This document shows positions 1-59,583 of a DNA stretch of 64,000 nucleotides, one piece after another (positions within the stretch are counted from its first letter, which is position 1; every line of letters begins with the position of its first letter). Position numbers and translations under genes: made by a program. The notes beneath the pieces are model-generated. The model saw nothing but the letters and a program-made list of their open reading frames with translations. It ran no database searches and was not told the origin of the DNA. Location: positions 1 through 64,000 of the forward strand of contig CAJFKR010000004.1 of assembly GCA_904386005.1 (NCBI GenBank), in the 5' to 3' direction. This stretch comes from Candidatus Flemingiibacterium merdigallinarum (GTDB taxonomy: Bacteria > Bacillota > Clostridia > Oscillospirales > CAG-272).

Positions 1-131
1 TGATAACTTAATTATACCGCAAAATCGGAGAAAAATCAGTTGTATTTCTGTTAATAAAGCACCGTGCCGATTGACTTTTTCGACTTTTTCAATCGGCTAA
101 ATAGCGATTCATATCAAGGAGGTAATGCCCA

Positions 132-19310: not shown

Positions 19311-19352
19311 AAATTCACCTCGCTGTGTTATTCTTTCATTTTTATCATTATT

Positions 19353-19455
19353 CCTTTTTGTGTCGATGTTTTGTGATGGTTTTGCGCAGCAAAATCGCAA
19401 TCGAAGATTGCGAAGTCACAAAACTCGTGAGTCTTAAAAATTTATTTTTAAGACT
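19353..19455 (-). repeat. Dispersed structured intergenic element, copy 3 (minus orientation, upstream of GH31)
   Basis: On minus: hairpin AGTCTTAAAAA/TTTTTAAGACT, P1 GTTTTGTGA/TCACAAAAC, P2 CGCAATC-TTC-GATTGCG, P3 TTTTGC-TGC-GCAAAA, tail ACATCGACACAAAAAGG. Confidence 0.85.
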
Positions 19456-20846
19456 TCGGGCATATCGGAATATGGCAGTATTGTCGGCAGCGTTTCGCCC
19501 GCTTTTTCCATATGTTTTAGCAGCAGCTGTTTCAGATTTTCGCGTATGCCGCCATATTTTTCGTCGGCGACCAGATTGTTCCGCTCGTGCGGGTCGGAGT
19601 TGAGGTCATAGAGAAAGTCCTCGTAGTATATATCCGCCGAGCTGTCCTGCCAGCCCTTCGCGTCGGCTCTGACCGAATACTTCCAGTCGCGCGTCCTGAC
19701 CGCTCGCCCGACCTGACTCTCGCTTATCTGCATGAACACCGAGTCGTCCCAGTCTTTGGCGCGCCCCTCGGCGAGCGGCAGGAGCGAGCGACCGTCCCAG
19801 CTCTCGGGTATGTCGATTCCGGCGCAGTCGAGCAGTGTCGCCGGCAGGTCTATAAGACTGACCATCGCGTCCTCGACCTTGCCGTTTCTGATATCGCGGG
19901 AAATCGCTTCAGAAACGCCGTCGGCAGTATTGTCAGTATTGCCGCTGAACGCGCCGCCGTGGATTATCAGCGGTATGTGCGTGCAGCCGTCGTGACAGGA
20001 GCGCTTGTATTCACGGTTGCGTGTGCAGAAGTGCGAGCCGTGGTCGGAGGTGTAGATGAATATCGTGTTGTCCCAGTCGCCCGTCTCGCGCAGCGTGTCG
20101 ACCAAGCGACCGACGTTGTAGTCGAGACTCGCGCACTGACCAAGGTAGTCGGGATAATTCTCGCGCCAGTCGCCGCCGGTGCCGACAAGGTCGCCGGGAA
20201 CATCGAAGTCGGCAAAGCGCGCCTTGCTGCCGTCCGGACCCTCAAAAATGCCGTGGTCGTTCTGGTGGTGCGGCTCGATCTGCGATATAAACAGGAAGAA
20301 CGGCTTTGAGCGGTCTCGGCTGTGCAGGTAGTCTATCGCGAAATTGTTTATGCAGTCGGCGCGGTAGCCGATGAATTCACGCCGCCGCATATCGCCGTCA
20401 TATACATAGCCGTTGTAGCCGTGCGACGTGAACTCGAGCACATCGGCAGCCATCCAGTAGTTATAACCGCCGCGGTATTCGGGTGGAATCGGCTCGGTGC
20501 GGTGGTTGATGCCCTTTGCGCTGTTTGACGCTAAGTGCCACTTGCCGACATACGCGGTGTCGTAGCCGGCGGCGTTGAACAGGTCGGCGAGTCGGTTCTC
20601 GCAGCCTGTCGGCAGCTCGATGTCGTTTCTAAAGCAGCCGGTACGGGTCGCGTATTTGCCGCTTTGCAGGCAGGCGCGCGCCGGACCGCAGACCGGCTGA
20701 CAGGTGAACGCGTTCGCGTATCTTGTCCCCTCGGCGGCGATAGAGTCGAGGTTCGGCGTGACCGGCAGACGCTGACCGTAGCAGCCAAGAGTGTCCCAAC
20801 GCTGCTGGTCGGAGAAGTAAAAGACGATATTCGGACGGGTGGTCAT
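19434..20846 (-). CDS. Sulfatase (type I, Cys-type)
   Basis: N-term PNIVFYFSDQQRWDTLGCYG, sulfatase motif CGPARACLQSGKY, YTSDHGSHF. Confidence 0.93.
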   Translation of the reverse strand: MTTRPNIVFYFSDQQRWDTLGCYGQRLPVTPNLDSIAAEGTRYANAFTCQPVCGPARACLQSGKYATRTGCFRNDIELPTGCENRLADLFNAAGYDTAYVGKWHLASNSAKGINHRTEPIPPEYRGGYNYWMAADVLEFTSHGYNGYVYDGDMRRREFIGYRADCINNFAIDYLHSRDRSKPFFLFISQIEPHHQNDHGIFEGPDGSKARFADFDVPGDLVGTGGDWRENYPDYLGQCASLDYNVGRLVDTLRETGDWDNTIFIYTSDHGSHFCTRNREYKRSCHDGCTHIPLIIHGGAFSGNTDNTADGVSEAISRDIRNGKVEDAMVSLIDLPATLLDCAGIDIPESWDGRSLLPLAEGRAKDWDDSVFMQISESQVGRAVRTRDWKYSVRADAKGWQDSSADIYYEDFLYDLNSDPHERNNLVADEKYGGIRENLKQLLLKHMEKAGETLPTILPYSDMPEVLKINF

Positions 20847-24355: not shown

Positions 24356-24507
24356 GCGGTCAGCCACGTCGATGAATGTCGAATTCTGCCGTAAAGCTAT
24401 GCGGCGCGGCAAAAATCGCGGAAATTATCCGAAAATCAACGAAATTGTCATAAAATCACGCGAAAATCCGTAATATTGCCGGATTTTTCTAAATTTCGCG
24501 CGGGTTA

Positions 24508-24536
24508 TTGACAAAACGCGGATTTTGTGATATACT
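24508..24536 (+). promoter_or_regulatory. Near-consensus sigma-A promoter for the candidate ncRNA
   Basis: TTGACA - 17 nt - TATACT. Confidence 0.85.
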
Positions 24537-24542
24537 ATCTCC

Positions 24543-24908: not shown

Positions 24909-24963
24909 GATTTGTCACGATATTGTAACGGGGACTTAAAGCTATTGATAATTTTGCGGTCTC

Positions 24964-25036
24964 ACGAGATTTATAACTCCGCTATCACAATAATAATTTG
25001 CTTTGCAAAATCATCACATACATCAACAAGGAAAGG
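24964..25036 (+). repeat. Decayed copy (copy 4) of the dispersed structured element
   Basis: CACGAGATTTATAACTCCGC..., intact P3 TTTGC-TTT-GCAAA, tail ATCATCACATACATCAACAAGGAAAGG. Confidence 0.6.
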
Positions 25037-25070
25037 CAGACCTTGCTAACGCAATGTCAGGGTCATATTT

Positions 25071-25367
25071 ATGATATCGAAAAAGCAGTATATAATAATA
25101 TTGATTTCAGTGCTTGTCGTTGTCTGGCTCTCCATGTTCGTGACTGATTTTATCTCGGCGTCGACGCTTCGCATGCCGAAGTTCGTTTTGCCAATTGATA
25201 CCGCTGACGACGGCGGGTCGGGAACTTATCTCGGTCTCGGCTACACAGTCGAGCTTGAGGTGCACCTTGACGTCGACTTAGGTGTAGTAATTGAAAAGAC
25301 TGAAATGAAAGTATTCGGCAGGGTCATTGCCTCGTCCGAGCGAGAAAGGGAGAGTATAGGATATTGA
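25071..25367 (+). CDS. Small membrane-anchored hypothetical protein
   Basis: N-terminal TM helix (YIIILISVLVVVWLSMFV); stop overlaps the TTG start of the decarboxylase. Confidence 0.6.
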   Translation: MISKKQYIIILISVLVVVWLSMFVTDFISASTLRMPKFVLPIDTADDGGSGTYLGLGYTVELEVHLDVDLGVVIEKTEMKVFGRVIASSERERESIGY

Positions 25368-26863: not shown

Positions 26864-27715
26864 ATGGATTTATGGTTCAGTGAAAATCATACGGAAAATG
26901 TAAAATTCAGTCTCAGAGTCGAGCAGCAGCTGTTTTCGGCGGAGAGTGAATATCAGCGTATAGATGTGTTTGACAGCATGGAGTTCGGGCGTGTGCTCGT
27001 GCTCGACGGAGACATAATGCTGACCGAGCGCGACGAGTTCGTATACGACGAGATGATAACTCACGTGCCGATGGCGGTTCACCCGAACCCGAAGAATATA
27101 CTTGTCATCGGCGTCGGCGACGGCGGAGTCGTCAAGGAGCTGACGAGATACGATTCGGTCGAGTCGATAGACCTTGTCGAGATGGACCCGATGGTAGTCG
27201 AGGTCTGCAAGAAGTATCTGCCGAACAACGCCTGTCAGCTCGACAATCCGCGCGTGCATATCCACTACGAGAACGGACTCAAGTTCCTGCGCCGGCATGA
27301 GAGCGAGTACGATATAATCATAATCGACAGCCCCGACCCGTTCGGACCGTCCGAGGGACTGTTCACCAAGGAGTTCTACGGCAGCTGCTACAAGGCACTG
27401 AAGGACGACGGAATCATGGTCAACCAGCAGGGAAGTCCGTTCTACCGCGAGGACGCGGTCGCGATGCAGCGCAGTCACCGCCGCATCGCCAGCACCTTCC
27501 CGATAGCGCGCACCTATCAGGCGCATATTCCGAGCTACGCCGCCGGTTACTGGCTGTTCGGCTTCGCGAGCAAGAAATATCATCCGATAAACAGCTTTGA
27601 CGGCGCGAAGTGGCGCTCGCTCGGACTCAAGACGAAATACTACACGACAAAGCTGCACATAGGCTGCTTCTATCTGCCGGCCTTCCTTGAGGAAATGCTG
27701 CTGAGTGTTGAGTGA
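26864..27715 (+). CDS. speE: Polyamine aminopropyltransferase (spermidine synthase)
   Basis: VLVLDGDIMLTERDEFVYDEMITHVP, VIGVGDGGVVKELTRY, DSPDPFGPSEGLFTKEFY. Confidence 0.92.
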   Translation: MDLWFSENHTENVKFSLRVEQQLFSAESEYQRIDVFDSMEFGRVLVLDGDIMLTERDEFVYDEMITHVPMAVHPNPKNILVIGVGDGGVVKELTRYDSVESIDLVEMDPMVVEVCKKYLPNNACQLDNPRVHIHYENGLKFLRRHESEYDIIIIDSPDPFGPSEGLFTKEFYGSCYKALKDDGIMVNQQGSPFYREDAVAMQRSHRRIASTFPIARTYQAHIPSYAAGYWLFGFASKKYHPINSFDGAKWRSLGLKTKYYTTKLHIGCFYLPAFLEEMLLSVE

Positions 27716-27812
27716 AGTTTGAAATTGATTTCAGACTGCGAGTTTTGTGACTACGCGGTCAAAGACCGCGATATGCTTTGCCAACCGTCATAAAACATCG
27801 ACAAAGGAAAGG
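27716..27812 (+). repeat. Dispersed structured intergenic element, copy 1 (upstream of speB)
   Basis: Hairpin AGTTTGAAAT/ATTTCAGACT, P1 GTTTTGTGAC/GTCATAAAAC (G-U), P2 CGCGGTC-AAA-GACCGCG, tail ACATCGACAAAGGAAAGG. Confidence 0.85.
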
Positions 27813-27850
27813 ATACTTTGCGGTCGCCAAGGATACTTTGCTGTCGCAAA
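27811..27850 (+). repeat. 20-nt tandem duplication in the speB 5' UTR
   Basis: GGATACTTTGCGGTCGCCAA / GGATACTTTGCTGTCGCAAA. Confidence 0.9.
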
Positions 27851-27853
27851 GTC

Positions 27854-28741
27854 ATGGTCAATATAATGCTTAATAAAAATATCGAAACCTTTATCGGCTG
27901 CGACGCCGAATTCGACGAGGCGAAAATTGTGCTGTACGGCGCGCCGTTCGACTCGACCACGAGCTACCGCCCGGGCGCGCGCTTCGGTCCGTCGGCGATA
28001 CGCCATGAAAGTTATGGAATTGAGACCTATTCGCCCTACCAAAAGCGCGACCTCACCGATATAAACGTGTTCGACAGCGGCGACCTCGAGCTCTGCTTCG
28101 GCGATACCGCCGCCGCTCTGGCTGTGATCGGCGAGAGGGCGGACGAGATAGTGTCGACCGGAAAAATTCCGTTGCTGCTCGGCGGAGAGCATCTGGTCAC
28201 GCTGCCGCCGGTCGAACGGCTGTACAAGCAGTATCCCGACCTGCACGTGATACACTTCGACGCACACGCCGACCTGCGCGACGATTACCTCGGCGCGCGT
28301 CTGTCGCACGCCTGCGTGCTGCGGAGAATACACGACCTTGTCGGTGACGGCAGAATACACCAGTTCGGCATACGCAGCGGCGAGAGGGGCGAATTTGAGT
28401 TCGCGGCGGCTCACACCGATATGCACCCACTGACGCTCGGCGGCTTCGGCGAGGTTCGCGCCGCGCTCGACGAGATGACAACGCTGCTCGCCGGACGGAA
28501 AGTCCCGGTCTATGTCACGGTCGACCTTGATGTGCTTGACCCGTCCGAGTTCCCGGGAACGGGCACGCCCGAAGCCGGCGGAATCAGCTTTCTCGAGCTG
28601 CTCGACTCGCTCATTATGATTGCGTCTCGGCTGAATGTCGTCGGTGCGGATTTGGTCGAGCTCGCGCCGAGTCTCGACAGCTCGGGTAGGTCGACCGCGC
28701 TCGCCTGCAAGCTGCTGCGCGAGGTGCTGCTCGCGCTGTGA
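27854..28741 (+). CDS. speB: Agmatinase / ureohydrolase family
   Basis: LYGAPFDSTTSYRPGARFGPSAIR, LLGGEHLVT, HFDAHADLR, VDLDVLDPSEFPGTGTPE. Confidence 0.92.
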   Translation: MVNIMLNKNIETFIGCDAEFDEAKIVLYGAPFDSTTSYRPGARFGPSAIRHESYGIETYSPYQKRDLTDINVFDSGDLELCFGDTAAALAVIGERADEIVSTGKIPLLLGGEHLVTLPPVERLYKQYPDLHVIHFDAHADLRDDYLGARLSHACVLRRIHDLVGDGRIHQFGIRSGERGEFEFAAAHTDMHPLTLGGFGEVRAALDEMTTLLAGRKVPVYVTVDLDVLDPSEFPGTGTPEAGGISFLELLDSLIMIASRLNVVGADLVELAPSLDSSGRSTALACKLLREVLLAL

Positions 28742-33637: not shown

Positions 33638-33666
33638 TTGACTTTCGGCGGCGCGTATGGTATCAT
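33638..33666 (+). promoter_or_regulatory. Sigma-A-type promoter
   Basis: TTGACT - 17 nt - TATCAT. Confidence 0.7.
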
Positions 33667-33721
33667 TTATTGTAGGATATCATAACAATAATGATAAATC
33701 CAACGTAAAACGACCCTTTGA

Positions 33722-33762
33722 CTTTGCTGTGCAAAGACGTCCGAATTTCGACAAGTGAAAGG
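33722..33762 (+). repeat. Decayed/partial copy (copy 5) of the dispersed element
   Basis: CTTTGC-TGT-GCAAAG hairpin then TTTCGACAAGTGAAAGG tail. Confidence 0.5.
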
Positions 33763-33783
33763 TAGCTTTGCGTATGCAAAGTC

Positions 33784-35847
33784 ATGGATATAATAACTAT
33801 GTATACTGAATTTCTGCCGCTCTCTCGCGCCGAAGCTGACGCGCGTGGGTGGGACCGCCCCGATTTCGTCTATGTCACCGGCGACGCGTATGTCGACCAC
33901 CCGAGCTTCGGCGTCGCGATTATCTCGCGTGTCCTTGAAGCCGAGGGCTTCCGCGTCGCGATATTGTCGCAGCCCGACTACAAGTCCTGCGACGCCTTCC
34001 GCGAATACGGACGCCCGCGTCTCGGCTTTCTCGTCACCGCCGGAAATATCGACTCGATGGTCGCGCACTATACCGTATCGAAAAAACGCCGCTCGTACGA
34101 TTACTACTCGCCCGGAGGCAGGATGGGACTGCGCCCCGACCGCGCGACTATCGTCTACTGCAACCGCATACGCGAAGCCTTCGGCGACGTGCCGATAATA
34201 CTCGGCGGACTCGAAGCCTCGCTGCGCCGGCTCGCGCACTACGACTACTGGGACGACAAGGTGCGCCGCAGTATATTGGTAGACTCGCGCGCCGACTTAC
34301 TCACCTACGGCATGGGCGAGAATATCCTGCGCCGCGTCGCCGAGCTGCTCGACCGCGGCGTGCCGATAAAGAAGATACACGATGTGCGCGGCACGGTATA
34401 TCTGACGAGCCGCGACGACAAGCCGCATTTCGACGTCGGCGGCGAATGGAATTATGACGACCTGAAAGCCGACTGTAAGCTCTACGCCGAGGCGTTCGGC
34501 GTGCAGTACAAGAACACCGACGCTGTAACCGGCAAGGCGCTCGTCGAATACTATGACAATAAAATGCTCGTGCAGAACCCGCCGATGCCGCCGCTCGAGC
34601 GCGACGAGCTCGACGCGGTCTACGCGCTCCCATATACCCGCCGTCCTCACCCGAGCTATGACAGCGTCGGCGGAGTTCCGGCTATAGCCGAGGTCGAGAT
34701 GTCGATAACGCACAACCGCGGCTGTTTCGGCGGCTGCAATTTCTGCGCACTGGCCTTTCATCAGGGCAGAACCGTGCGCTCGCGCTCGATCGAGTCGGTT
34801 GTCAATGAGGCGAAGCTCATCACCGAGTCGCCTAATTTCAAAGGCTACATCAACGACATCGGAGGTCCGACCGCGAATTTCCGCTATCCCGCCTGCGAGA
34901 AGCAGAAGACTCAGGGCGTCTGCGCAAACCGGAAGTGTCTCGCGCCGAAGCCCTGCCCGAATCTTATCGCCGACCATTCGGAATATATCGAGCTGCTCCG
35001 CCGCGTCGAGAGCCTGCCTAAAGTGAAAAAGGTGTTCATTCGTTCGGGCATACGCTTTGACTATATGCTCGCCGACAAGGATGAGAGCTTCTTCAAGAAG
35101 CTGGTGCGCGATCATGTCAGCGGTCAATTAAAGGTCGCGCCCGAGCACTGCTCGAACGCGGTGTTATGCGAGATGGGCAAGCCGCCGATCGAGGTTTTCG
35201 AGCGGTTCAAGCGCCGTTTCTTTGAGCTTACTAAGAGCATCGGCAAGGAGCAGTACCTCGTCCCCTACCTGATGTCGAGCCACCCGGGCAGCCGGCTTTC
35301 CGACGCGGTCGAGCTGGCGGTATATCTCAAAAAATGGGGCTACTCTCCCGAACAGGTGCAGGACTTCTACCCGACTCCCGGCACGGCGTCGACGGTAATG
35401 TATTACACCGGAATCGACCCTCTGACGATGAAGCCGGTTTACTGTGCGCACGATTATGAGGAAAAACGTATGCAGCGCGCGCTGTTACAGTACAGCCGTC
35501 CGGACAATGCCGAGCTTGTGCGCCGCGCGCTCGAGAAGTGTCACCGCACCGACCTCATCGGATATGGTCCCGACTGTCTTGCGAGGCCGCGCTCGGGTAA
35601 CGGCGGCAGCAGATCGCAGAGAGACGCGAAGTCGAACAAGGATGTAAAATCGCGCTCCGGTCAAAATCAGCCGTCATTGCGCGTGAGCAGAGAAGCGTCT
35701 GACCGCTCACGGAATCGCGGTCACCAAAAAGACAGCGGCAGACCTATTACAAAGGGCGGACGCGCCGACAATAAATCTCAAGCGTTTTCCGGCAAGAAGG
35801 CTCAAGCATCCAATGATAAGAACCGCGGCGGGTATCCTCACCGATAA
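33784..35847 (+). CDS. YgiQ family radical SAM protein
   Basis: CFGGCNFCALAFHQGRTVRSRS (CxxxCxxC), EMSITHNRGCFGGC, PEHCSNAVLCEMGKP, lysine/arginine/serine-rich C-terminal tail. Confidence 0.93.
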   Translation: MDIITMYTEFLPLSRAEADARGWDRPDFVYVTGDAYVDHPSFGVAIISRVLEAEGFRVAILSQPDYKSCDAFREYGRPRLGFLVTAGNIDSMVAHYTVSKKRRSYDYYSPGGRMGLRPDRATIVYCNRIREAFGDVPIILGGLEASLRRLAHYDYWDDKVRRSILVDSRADLLTYGMGENILRRVAELLDRGVPIKKIHDVRGTVYLTSRDDKPHFDVGGEWNYDDLKADCKLYAEAFGVQYKNTDAVTGKALVEYYDNKMLVQNPPMPPLERDELDAVYALPYTRRPHPSYDSVGGVPAIAEVEMSITHNRGCFGGCNFCALAFHQGRTVRSRSIESVVNEAKLITESPNFKGYINDIGGPTANFRYPACEKQKTQGVCANRKCLAPKPCPNLIADHSEYIELLRRVESLPKVKKVFIRSGIRFDYMLADKDESFFKKLVRDHVSGQLKVAPEHCSNAVLCEMGKPPIEVFERFKRRFFELTKSIGKEQYLVPYLMSSHPGSRLSDAVELAVYLKKWGYSPEQVQDFYPTPGTASTVMYYTGIDPLTMKPVYCAHDYEEKRMQRALLQYSRPDNAELVRRALEKCHRTDLIGYGPDCLARPRSGNGGSRSQRDAKSNKDVKSRSGQNQPSLRVSREASDRSRNRGHQKDSGRPITKGGRADNKSQAFSGKKAQASNDKNRGGYPHR

Positions 35848-37288: not shown

Positions 37289-38881
37289 ATGAAATATAGA
37301 ATTACCCTATTCGAGCGTATGCTCTCGCTTATACTCGCGCTTACAATGACGGCGGTTATGCTGGCGTCGGGCGTATATGTACGCGCTGCCGATGTCGATA
37401 CCGGCGCGGTAAGTACCGCTGGAACTGACAGTACCGCCGCAACTGACAGTACCGCTGGAACTGACAGTACCGCCGCAACTGACAGTACCGCTGGAACTGA
37501 CAGTACCGCCGCTGCTGACAGTACTGCCGCAACTGACAGTACTGCCGCAACTGACAGTACCGCTGCCGGCGACAATGGCGCGTCAGGCTCGGTCGACATA
37601 TCCGACGCGACCGAACCCGCTGACACCTCGGATGAGTCGGACGAGGACTCCAACCCCATGCCAACCGTCGACCACGCGAACGCCGCTTGTGTCTACAACA
37701 TCGAGAACGACCGCTACATCTTTGACAAAAACAAGGACGAGCAGATCTATCCGGCGTCGACGGTCAAGCTGATGACCGCGATACTCGCCGTCGAGGCGTT
37801 CGGCGAAGACCTCGACCGCGAAATCACCGCGACGTCCGAGGCGCTCGGCGCGACGTCAGGCAACAACATCGCGATAAAGCGCGACGAGGTATTGACCGCC
37901 GAGCAGCTGCTATACGCGCTGATCTGCGGCTGCGCGAACGACGCGGCGAATGTGCTGGCAGTCGAGATCGCCGGAAGCATCGAGGGCTTCGTCGTGATGA
38001 TGAACCAAAAGGCGAGGGAGCTCGGCGCGGTCAACACAAACTACATGAACCCGACGGGTATGCACCACCCCGCGATGGTGACGACCGCGGCGGATACCGC
38101 GCTGATCGCGGCTGAAGCCGCGAAAAACGAGCTGATAGTCGAGATGTCGACCGTCGAAAAATACACGATTGAAGCCACGAACAAGCAGCCGCAGCGGATT
38201 ATCTTCAACAAGAACTACTACTATTCGTCGAATATGGAGTATATCTACCGCTGGAGTGTGCCGCGCGGACTGAATGCCGGCTACACCGCGGAGGGCGGCT
38301 ACTGCATCGCGACGTCGGCGGCGCGCGACGGACTGACTTATATAATCATCGTAATGGGCGCGCGGGCGGACGACAAATATATCTACTCCTACACCGAGGC
38401 GGCCGACCTCATCAATTGGGCGCTGTACGCTTATGGCTACGTGAAAGTGCTGACCACGTCGAGTATGATCTGTGAGGTGCCGGTCAAGCTCGCGAGCAAG
38501 GTCGACTATGTGACCCTGTTCCCGTCGTCCGACATCGAGCTTTACCTGCCGGTCGACGTCGACCTGTCGAACGACGTGCAGATAAGCTGGCAGCTGACGG
38601 TCGACTCATTCACCGCGCCGGTCGATGAGGGAGAGGTCGGCGGAACACTGACCGCGACCTACAAGGGCGAGAGTCTCGGCAGCTACGAGCTGATTACGAA
38701 AAGCAGTGTGAACCGAAGCAACATATTGTATATAGTTGACCTTGCGAGACAGCTGGTCGAGACGCAGCAGTTCAAGACGGTGGTTGTCATTGTCGTCATA
38801 CTGTTTGTCGGATATATCGGTGTCTCGTTCCTGCTCGCGTACAATTCGCGTCAGCGCAGAAGCCGCGGTCGGAGACGATAG
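37289..38881 (+). CDS. D-alanyl-D-alanine carboxypeptidase-like (PBP5/DacF family) membrane protein
   Basis: Signal peptide, Ser/Thr/Ala/Asp repeat linker, ASTVKLMTAILAVEAF (SxxK), C-terminal TM; motifs 2 and 3 atypical (see findings). Confidence 0.85.
   Translation: MKYRITLFERMLSLILALTMTAVMLASGVYVRAADVDTGAVSTAGTDSTAATDSTAGTDSTAATDSTAGTDSTAAADSTAATDSTAATDSTAAGDNGASGSVDISDATEPADTSDESDEDSNPMPTVDHANAACVYNIENDRYIFDKNKDEQIYPASTVKLMTAILAVEAFGEDLDREITATSEALGATSGNNIAIKRDEVLTAEQLLYALICGCANDAANVLAVEIAGSIEGFVVMMNQKARELGAVNTNYMNPTGMHHPAMVTTAADTALIAAEAAKNELIVEMSTVEKYTIEATNKQPQRIIFNKNYYYSSNMEYIYRWSVPRGLNAGYTAEGGYCIATSAARDGLTYIIIVMGARADDKYIYSYTEAADLINWALYAYGYVKVLTTSSMICEVPVKLASKVDYVTLFPSSDIELYLPVDVDLSNDVQISWQLTVDSFTAPVDEGEVGGTLTATYKGESLGSYELITKSSVNRSNILYIVDLARQLVETQQFKTVVVIVVILFVGYIGVSFLLAYNSRQRRSRGRRR
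37411..37566 (+). repeat. 18-bp in-frame tandem repeat (TDSTAA/TDSTAG), about 8.5 units
   Basis: Repeating ACTGACAGTACCGCCGCA / ACTGACAGTACCGCTGGA. Confidence 0.95.
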
Positions 38882-40810: not shown

Positions 40811-40911
40811 GCTAAGTCTGAAAATAAATTTTCAGACACGAGTTTTGTGACTTCGCGGTCTTCAACCGCGATTTGCTTCGCAAACCGTCACAAAACATCG
40901 ACATAGAAAGG
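40811..40911 (+). repeat. Dispersed structured intergenic element, copy 2 (upstream of the kinase-like gene)
   Basis: Hairpin GTCTGAAAAT/ATTTTCAGAC, P1 GTTTTGTGAC/GTCACAAAAC, P2 CGCGGT-CTTCA-ACCGCG, P3 TTTGC-TTC-GCAAA, tail ACATCGACATAGAAAGG. Confidence 0.88.
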
Positions 40912-40980
40912 TCCATATACGCAATAGTGTTTCGGCTGTATACGATACAAAACCACGATATACGCGATTGGAGACGGACA

Positions 40981-41541
40981 ATGTATACAATAGGAGTCGC
41001 GGGCGGCTCCTGCTCGGGCAAGACTACACTGACCGGCGCGCTCGAGCGCCGCTTCAAGGACGGCGGGCTGAATACAAGTGTCATACACATGGACTCCTTT
41101 TTCAAGAATCCGCCGCCGAGGACTGTCGCCCCATTTACGGGCGTCGAATACAAAGACTGCAACCACCCGAATTCGTTCAGGCTCGACGATTTCTACGCCG
41201 CGATAGACAACGCGAGGGCTTCGGCGACCGATATCGTCATAGTCGAGGGGCTGTTGGTGCTGTGGCTCGACGAGGCGCGGCAGAGGCTTGATTTGCGGAT
41301 ATTTGTCGACCTCGCGAGCGACGAGCGGCTCTACCGGCGCATCAAGCGCTTCATGCGCGACACAAACGAGACTATCGACGAAATCGCGTCGCGCTATCTC
41401 GATACGGTGCGCTTCAGGTACGACGAATTCATCGAGCCGTCGCGCTGGTACGCCGACCTTGTCATAAACGGCTCTGCCGACACGAATAGAAGCTCGGAGA
41501 TAGTATATCGCTATGTAAACGGTGAAATCCACGGCAAATAA
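40981..41541 (+). CDS. Uridine kinase-like P-loop nucleoside kinase
   Basis: IGVAGGSCSGKTTLTGALERRF (Walker A), HMDSFFKNPPPR, NHPNSFRLDDFYAAI, IVIVEGLLVLW; start ATG 40981 after GGAGACGG. Confidence 0.85.
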   Translation: MYTIGVAGGSCSGKTTLTGALERRFKDGGLNTSVIHMDSFFKNPPPRTVAPFTGVEYKDCNHPNSFRLDDFYAAIDNARASATDIVIVEGLLVLWLDEARQRLDLRIFVDLASDERLYRRIKRFMRDTNETIDEIASRYLDTVRFRYDEFIEPSRWYADLVINGSADTNRSSEIVYRYVNGEIHGK

Positions 41542-59496: not shown

Positions 59497-59543
59497 AATT
59501 AATACAACCCTTCATGTGCGATTGATGTAATCTTGATATCAAT

Positions 59544-59572
59544 ATGATATCACAAAATTCCGCGATTGTCAA
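59544..59572 (-). promoter_or_regulatory. Sigma-A-type promoter (minus)
   Basis: On minus: TTGACA - 17 nt - TATCAT. Confidence 0.75.
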
Positions 59573-59583
59573 TAGGCAAAATA

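Follow-up and report, generated by a model that had tools for sequence, protein, structure and literature searches.

An intergenic element at position 40812 of the window (the 64,000-nt stretch of DNA analysed here) raises the question of whether a folded sequence repeated before unrelated genes is a structured regulatory leader or a piece of mobile DNA, two readings between which the initial annotation had not chosen. Here we describe its complete architecture, its copies in the window's own genome and in related genomes, and the position at which these copies lie. The evidence makes it probable that this is a non-autonomous mobile element, with translation-initiation regions as its target and a Shine–Dalgarno (SD) motif of its own, so that the host gene stays expressed.

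The copy at 40812–40929 (plus strand; covariance model E 6.9e-19) begins with a 5′ hairpin, P1 (40816–40837, plus strand), which reads GTCTGAAAA-TAAA-TTTTCAGAC and has arms at 40816–40824 and 40829–40837. The hairpin is followed by a three-way junction (40839–40900, plus strand), in which P2 (40839–40851/40887–40900) encloses P3a (40853–40871) and P3b (40872–40884), and by an internal SD-like GAAAGG (40906–40911, plus strand). P2 is extended by CGA (40839–40841) paired with TCG (40898–40900), with a bulged A between, and the inner stems are TCGCGGT/ACCGCGA and TTTGC/GCAAA. All stems of the hairpin and three-way junction, as well as the AAAGG tail, were found where the initial annotation had placed them, and the three good window copies have folding z-scores of −5.4, −3.4 and −5.9 against shuffles. 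The copy precedes a uridine kinase-type gene (ATG at 40981), the SD of which is located between the copy and this ATG. It had been regarded as the best copy; its 5′ part is complete, but the 3′ hairpin is missing, and divergence from the other copies starts directly after GAAAGGT.

A full copy lies at 27713–27865 (plus strand; E 2.7e-15), directly adjoined by the start codon at 27866 of speB, a gene of the arginase/agmatinase family; it carries the 3′ hairpin and ATGGTCAATATA, with a local duplication in the 3′ hairpin region. The copy at 19337–19458 (minus strand; E 7.7e-16) has no 3′ hairpin and is located upstream of a GH31-type gene (a name taken from the initial annotation), whose own SD and ATG follow. 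The covariance model also recovered the two decayed copies among the five previously proposed for the window. One, at 24936–25073 (plus strand; E 9.1e-6), has its 3′ end at an ATG, and the other, at 33665–33798 (plus strand), is a weak match (E 0.084) just before an ATG, in which the 3′ hairpin and ATGGATATAA are readable. Elsewhere in the window, nine 18-bp tandem repeats (37376–37591), with a spacing that is a multiple of three, are probably a coding repeat, and a 33-nt inverted pair (24506–24538 and 59542–59574; 76% complementary) has a TATTGACA...TATACTAT-like promoter sequence in both members.

Alignment of copies together with their flanks revealed that the element spans about 120–140 nt, or about 130–140 nt when complete, and the previously proposed length of about 100 nt, ending at a conserved tail, is too short. 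From 5′ to 3′, the hairpin and three-way junction are followed by the internal SD GAAAGGA, by a 3′ hairpin that is optional, and by ATGGTCATAA, the conserved right end. In typical copies, the AAAGG is followed by the 3′ hairpin GACTTCGC-loop-GCGAAGTC, then by ATGGTCATAA, two variable bases and the ATG of the gene; some relatives without the 3′ hairpin read GAAAGGAATGGTCATAAAAATG, and the distance from the elemental ATGG to the ATG is still 12 nt. The element contains no open reading frame (ORF).

The helices are preserved by compensatory changes, as the initial annotation had reported from the window copies. RNAalifold detected double changes at 9 pairs among 13 copies from the window's own genome, and in a 76-copy alignment from many species (75 distinct), 93.7% of the cells are paired and double changes occur at 40 of 43 pairs. 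The covariation score of 0.418 compares with 0.124 for the shuffled control and no more than 0.063 when the partners are slid, a large gap, although this alignment was fitted to the model and is biased in favour of covariation. G–U pairs account for only 1.8% of the pairs (75–76 aligned copies). A functional RNA would be expected to have more of them, and the low share may indicate that the helices are important as DNA, or that arm-to-arm copying keeps them perfect. In the same alignment, conserved unpaired positions are few and a dense aptamer-like core is absent. Of the 76 copies, 69 retain the internal SD-like motif, a frequency that fits a putative replacement ribosome-binding site. In three copies of the window's genome, L031 (G000 C43:5069–5247), L033 (C86:14717–14894) and L134 (C48:7095–7307), the P3a arm carries additional hairpins or tandem units that enlarge it, so this inner arm tolerates expansion.

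Comparison with Rfam 15 agreed with the initial annotation, which had recognized no named family: no family scored above its gathering threshold anywhere in the window, and at the element loci permissive filters (E ≤ 1 or 5) yielded no match, including none to a ribozyme or intron family. A T-box leader on contig C52 of the window's genome (L025:2490–2739; Rfam RF00230, 114.7 bits) is unrelated to the element.

The element is a dispersed repeat in the window's own genome (3.49 Mb in 153 contigs), and the further copies that its description as such implied are numerous. A blastn search with the 96-nt element sequence returned 41 matches, some of them 100% identical, and the covariance model returned 116 at E ≤ 0.1, of which over 50 have E-values under 1e-7. 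Because the model was built from 13 own-genome copies, the E-values of such members are circular; the blastn search does not depend on the model. Several copies are 98–100% identical over 96–134 nt at unrelated sites, and the 60-nt flanks of three near-identical copies share only 25–40% identity. Many contigs terminate within a copy, as expected because a repeat breaks assembly. An autonomous version, with an ORF between two half-elements, was not seen, partial matches being almost all at contig ends, and no transposase gene was seen inside an element copy. A second subfamily, GCGTGAAAA...TTTTCACGC, AGCTTTCGC...GCGAAAGC, occurs in the window's genome (G000) at C78:2512–2650, C109:8212–8348 and C86:12676–12814, and resembles the subfamily of the congener G003.

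Site statistics were compiled over 131 distinct copies, 121 of which had enough sequence at the right junction. In 96 of these 121 copies (about 79%), an ORF of 45 codons or more begins at the right junction, compared with 0–21% at shifted control positions, and the right end mostly lies at a constant offset, 2 nt before the downstream ATG. At the other end, 53 of 128 copies have an SD match of 5 nt or longer within 17 nt on the left, whereas in each control window 6–9 of 126–128 do. The left flank ends in an apparent SD of the downstream gene, as in ...CAGGAGGAAA/element/TCATG and ...GGAGGCT/element/AATATG, and is otherwise variable except for an A beside the stem. When the flanks are joined across the element, the SD–ATG spacing falls into the canonical range of 4–8 nt in 43 of 59 copies. 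Conserved proteins such as SerA, TruB, ProC and LigA back the native starts. About 20% of the copies lie outside the SD–ATG spacer, either upstream of an SD that is still intact or at a distance from genes; two of the three good copies in the window are among them. The element ends were inferred from aligned copies rather than from isogenic empty sites and are approximate; within these limits, the aligned junctions revealed no inverted repeat linking both ends and no constant duplication, whereas a DDE-type MITE would have terminal inverted repeats and a target-site duplication.

The orientation with the downstream gene, already evident among the window copies, is overwhelmingly maintained and not random, and the SD/ATG insertion rule explains it without a regulatory role. 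Neither this rule nor the 3′ part of the element had been recognized in the initial annotation. The distance from the elemental ATGG to the ATG of the gene is 12 nt in 54 of the 73 copies with a recognizable elemental ATG. We considered the element's own ATG as a start codon because most copies have it in frame; however, it is missing in about a quarter of the start-abutting copies and, in the hairpin-less forms, abuts the SD. The constant distance is therefore more likely to be a property of the insertion site than a sign of start-codon use.

Orthologous sites in congeners are empty. For eight element-bearing genes, all 24 congener orthologues found have no element in the 60 nt preceding the start. 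All five congeners are empty at serA, where the ATG follows the SD at its usual spacing, and at truB the congener stop and start codons overlap or abut, the element sitting in that junction in the window's species. A gain in the window's species is a simpler reading than loss in all congeners. The element itself occurs in four of the five congeners, largely as divergent subfamilies of each congener's own, and one congener has none. Its many near-identical copies at unrelated positions, the absence of an ORF and the empty orthologous sites make it a non-autonomous dispersed repeat, broadly of the MITE/SINE-like kind.

More widely, a pattern scan of GTDB genomes detected the same architecture, flanked by an SD upstream and an ATG downstream, in numerous uncultured Oscillospirales-type Clostridia. 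A broad model matched 15 of 295 genomes of the order (12 of 149 genera) in a patchy distribution and, in a sample of the class, two further genomes besides the window's own, both counts being lower bounds owing to strict filters. No element was found in the viral contigs, plasmids and phages searched. Three pattern matches in Bacteroidota (L173, L191 and L207) were judged to be due to chance. In other Clostridia, tandem arrays with a period of 122–123 nt precede a single start codon, with four copies at L210:1440–2010, the last of which lacks the 3′ hairpin, and three at L198:2740–3180. Distant single matches at L176:7592–7725 (UBA1779) and L197:137–260 (GWF2_38_85) have the junction and SD directly before the ATG, with no SD upstream of the element and no ATGGTCATAA tail, and possibly represent an ancestral fixed leader. 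In Lapin-004, variants without the SD and 3′ hairpin (L178 and L185) are preceded by terminator-like G/C runs instead of an SD.

Copy number, sequence identity and empty sites together point to mobility, and with the unrelated flanks, tandem arrays and patchy distribution they favour the small non-autonomous mobile element over the other possibility initially raised. We propose that the element inserts in the sense orientation into the translation-initiation region, after the native SD and usually 2 nt before the start codon. The native SD would be displaced by about 130 nt and the element's SD would take over its position; the gene would thereby remain expressed, probably by translation from the internal SD, and the insertion would be tolerated. 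Mobilization would depend on a trans-acting enzyme, which may recognize a folded single-stranded DNA or RNA form.

We searched for such an enzyme among known families. No match to the Y1 (HUH) transposase (PF01797) exceeded the cut-off in the six genomes of the genus: it is absent from the window's own genome (94% complete), four of the five congeners have no match and the fifth has only a sub-threshold one. An IS200/IS605 non-autonomous derivative was rejected on this ground and because there is no fixed short target at the 5′ junction. A group II-type retro-element was likewise rejected, the reverse transcriptase RVT_1 (PF00078) not being found in nine of ten element-bearing genomes. Association with IS110 (PF01548) or TnpB (PF07282) was also discarded, as the presence of neither the transposase nor the nuclease tracks consistently with the element.

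The principal alternative is a cis-regulatory leader, binding a protein or ligand, that belongs to one regulon and reached further leaders through recombination or gene conversion, with regulation as the selected trait. Such a leader would account for the sense orientation, the position at the translation start, the conserved structure and the internal SD. However, the genes 3′ of the copies are functionally unrelated, including those for proline, serine and polyamine metabolism, TruB, a deformylase, MATE, ThuA and NUDIX proteins; because they share no function and the congener orthologues lack the element, we regard a regulatory RNA as unlikely. The scarcity of conserved unpaired positions further argues against it, and a riboswitch was rejected on this and the diversity of the genes. 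Moreover, the tandem arrays and near-identical recent copies look selfish.

Two other explanations concern the position rather than the nature of the element. A mobile element without site preference, whose surviving insertions are only those that left genes expressed, agrees with the one-fifth of copies located elsewhere, including those upstream of an intact SD; yet it predicts that most copies occupy neutral intergenic or downstream positions, where insertions far from starts would escape purifying selection, and the predominance of start-abutting copies with a 2-nt offset renders it quite improbable. Still harder to credit is an insert that is processed out of the mRNA or bridged, in an intron-like or bypass-like manner, bringing the native SD back beside the ATG. 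The native SD is indeed often kept upstream, the joined flanks have canonical spacing, and the folds are stable and compact, but simple insertion predicts the same spacing, no ribozyme or intron family matches, and the element's conserved SD-like motif would be pointless after excision.

Beyond insertion into translation-initiation regions, the element may, more tentatively, represent a new class of mobile element, which finds these regions by an integration specified by start codon and SD, carries a portable ribosome-binding leader and is moved by a so far unrecognized enzyme acting on a folded single strand. As a rule, mobile DNA either keeps away from translation signals or disrupts them, and making a home of the SD–ATG spacer while providing a replacement SD would be a new answer to the problem of parasite survival in a compact genome. 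The leaders of dozens of genes would have been rewired, including those of the usually essential or important ligA and truB, and the implied enzyme would have a specificity of practical use, insertion just before start codons.

The element behaves like other small dispersed structured repeats and falls into none of the families tested; we found no description of it in the open-access literature, so an earlier account elsewhere is possible. REP/BIME, BOX, RUP and Correia elements and MITEs are likewise short, ORF-less, intergenic, imperfectly palindromic, present in dozens of copies and presumably mobilized in trans, but they differ from the present element in its three-way junction, internal SD and fixed start-codon distance, and none of them is known to be confined to the SD–ATG spacer in the sense orientation. 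IS200/IS605-type palindrome-associated elements, which undergo single-strand transposition by a Y1 transposase, share subterminal hairpins, nearly exclusive Watson–Crick pairing and orientation-specific insertion, whereas at its left end the present element has no fixed 5′ target of four or five nucleotides. Rickettsia palindromic elements are mobile and also insert in a gene-compatible manner, albeit in frame inside coding sequences rather than before start codons. Among structured intergenic sequences, the mobile or repeat candidates of the GC-IGR surveys, such as MRSC-65-2, are likewise multi-copy, covariation-supported and judged selfish; MRSC-65-2 is a single long stem with UYCCGG repeats, and the text consulted does not mention start-codon targeting (PMC11109978). 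The nearest published parallel in position is provided by the TAACTGA heptamers of marine Beggiatoaceae, which are concentrated in the forward orientation immediately 5′ of the start codons of functionally unrelated genes; unlike the present element, these are unstructured 7-nt tandem units that overlap the place of the SD, with no internal SD, hairpins or three-way junction (PMC4679880).
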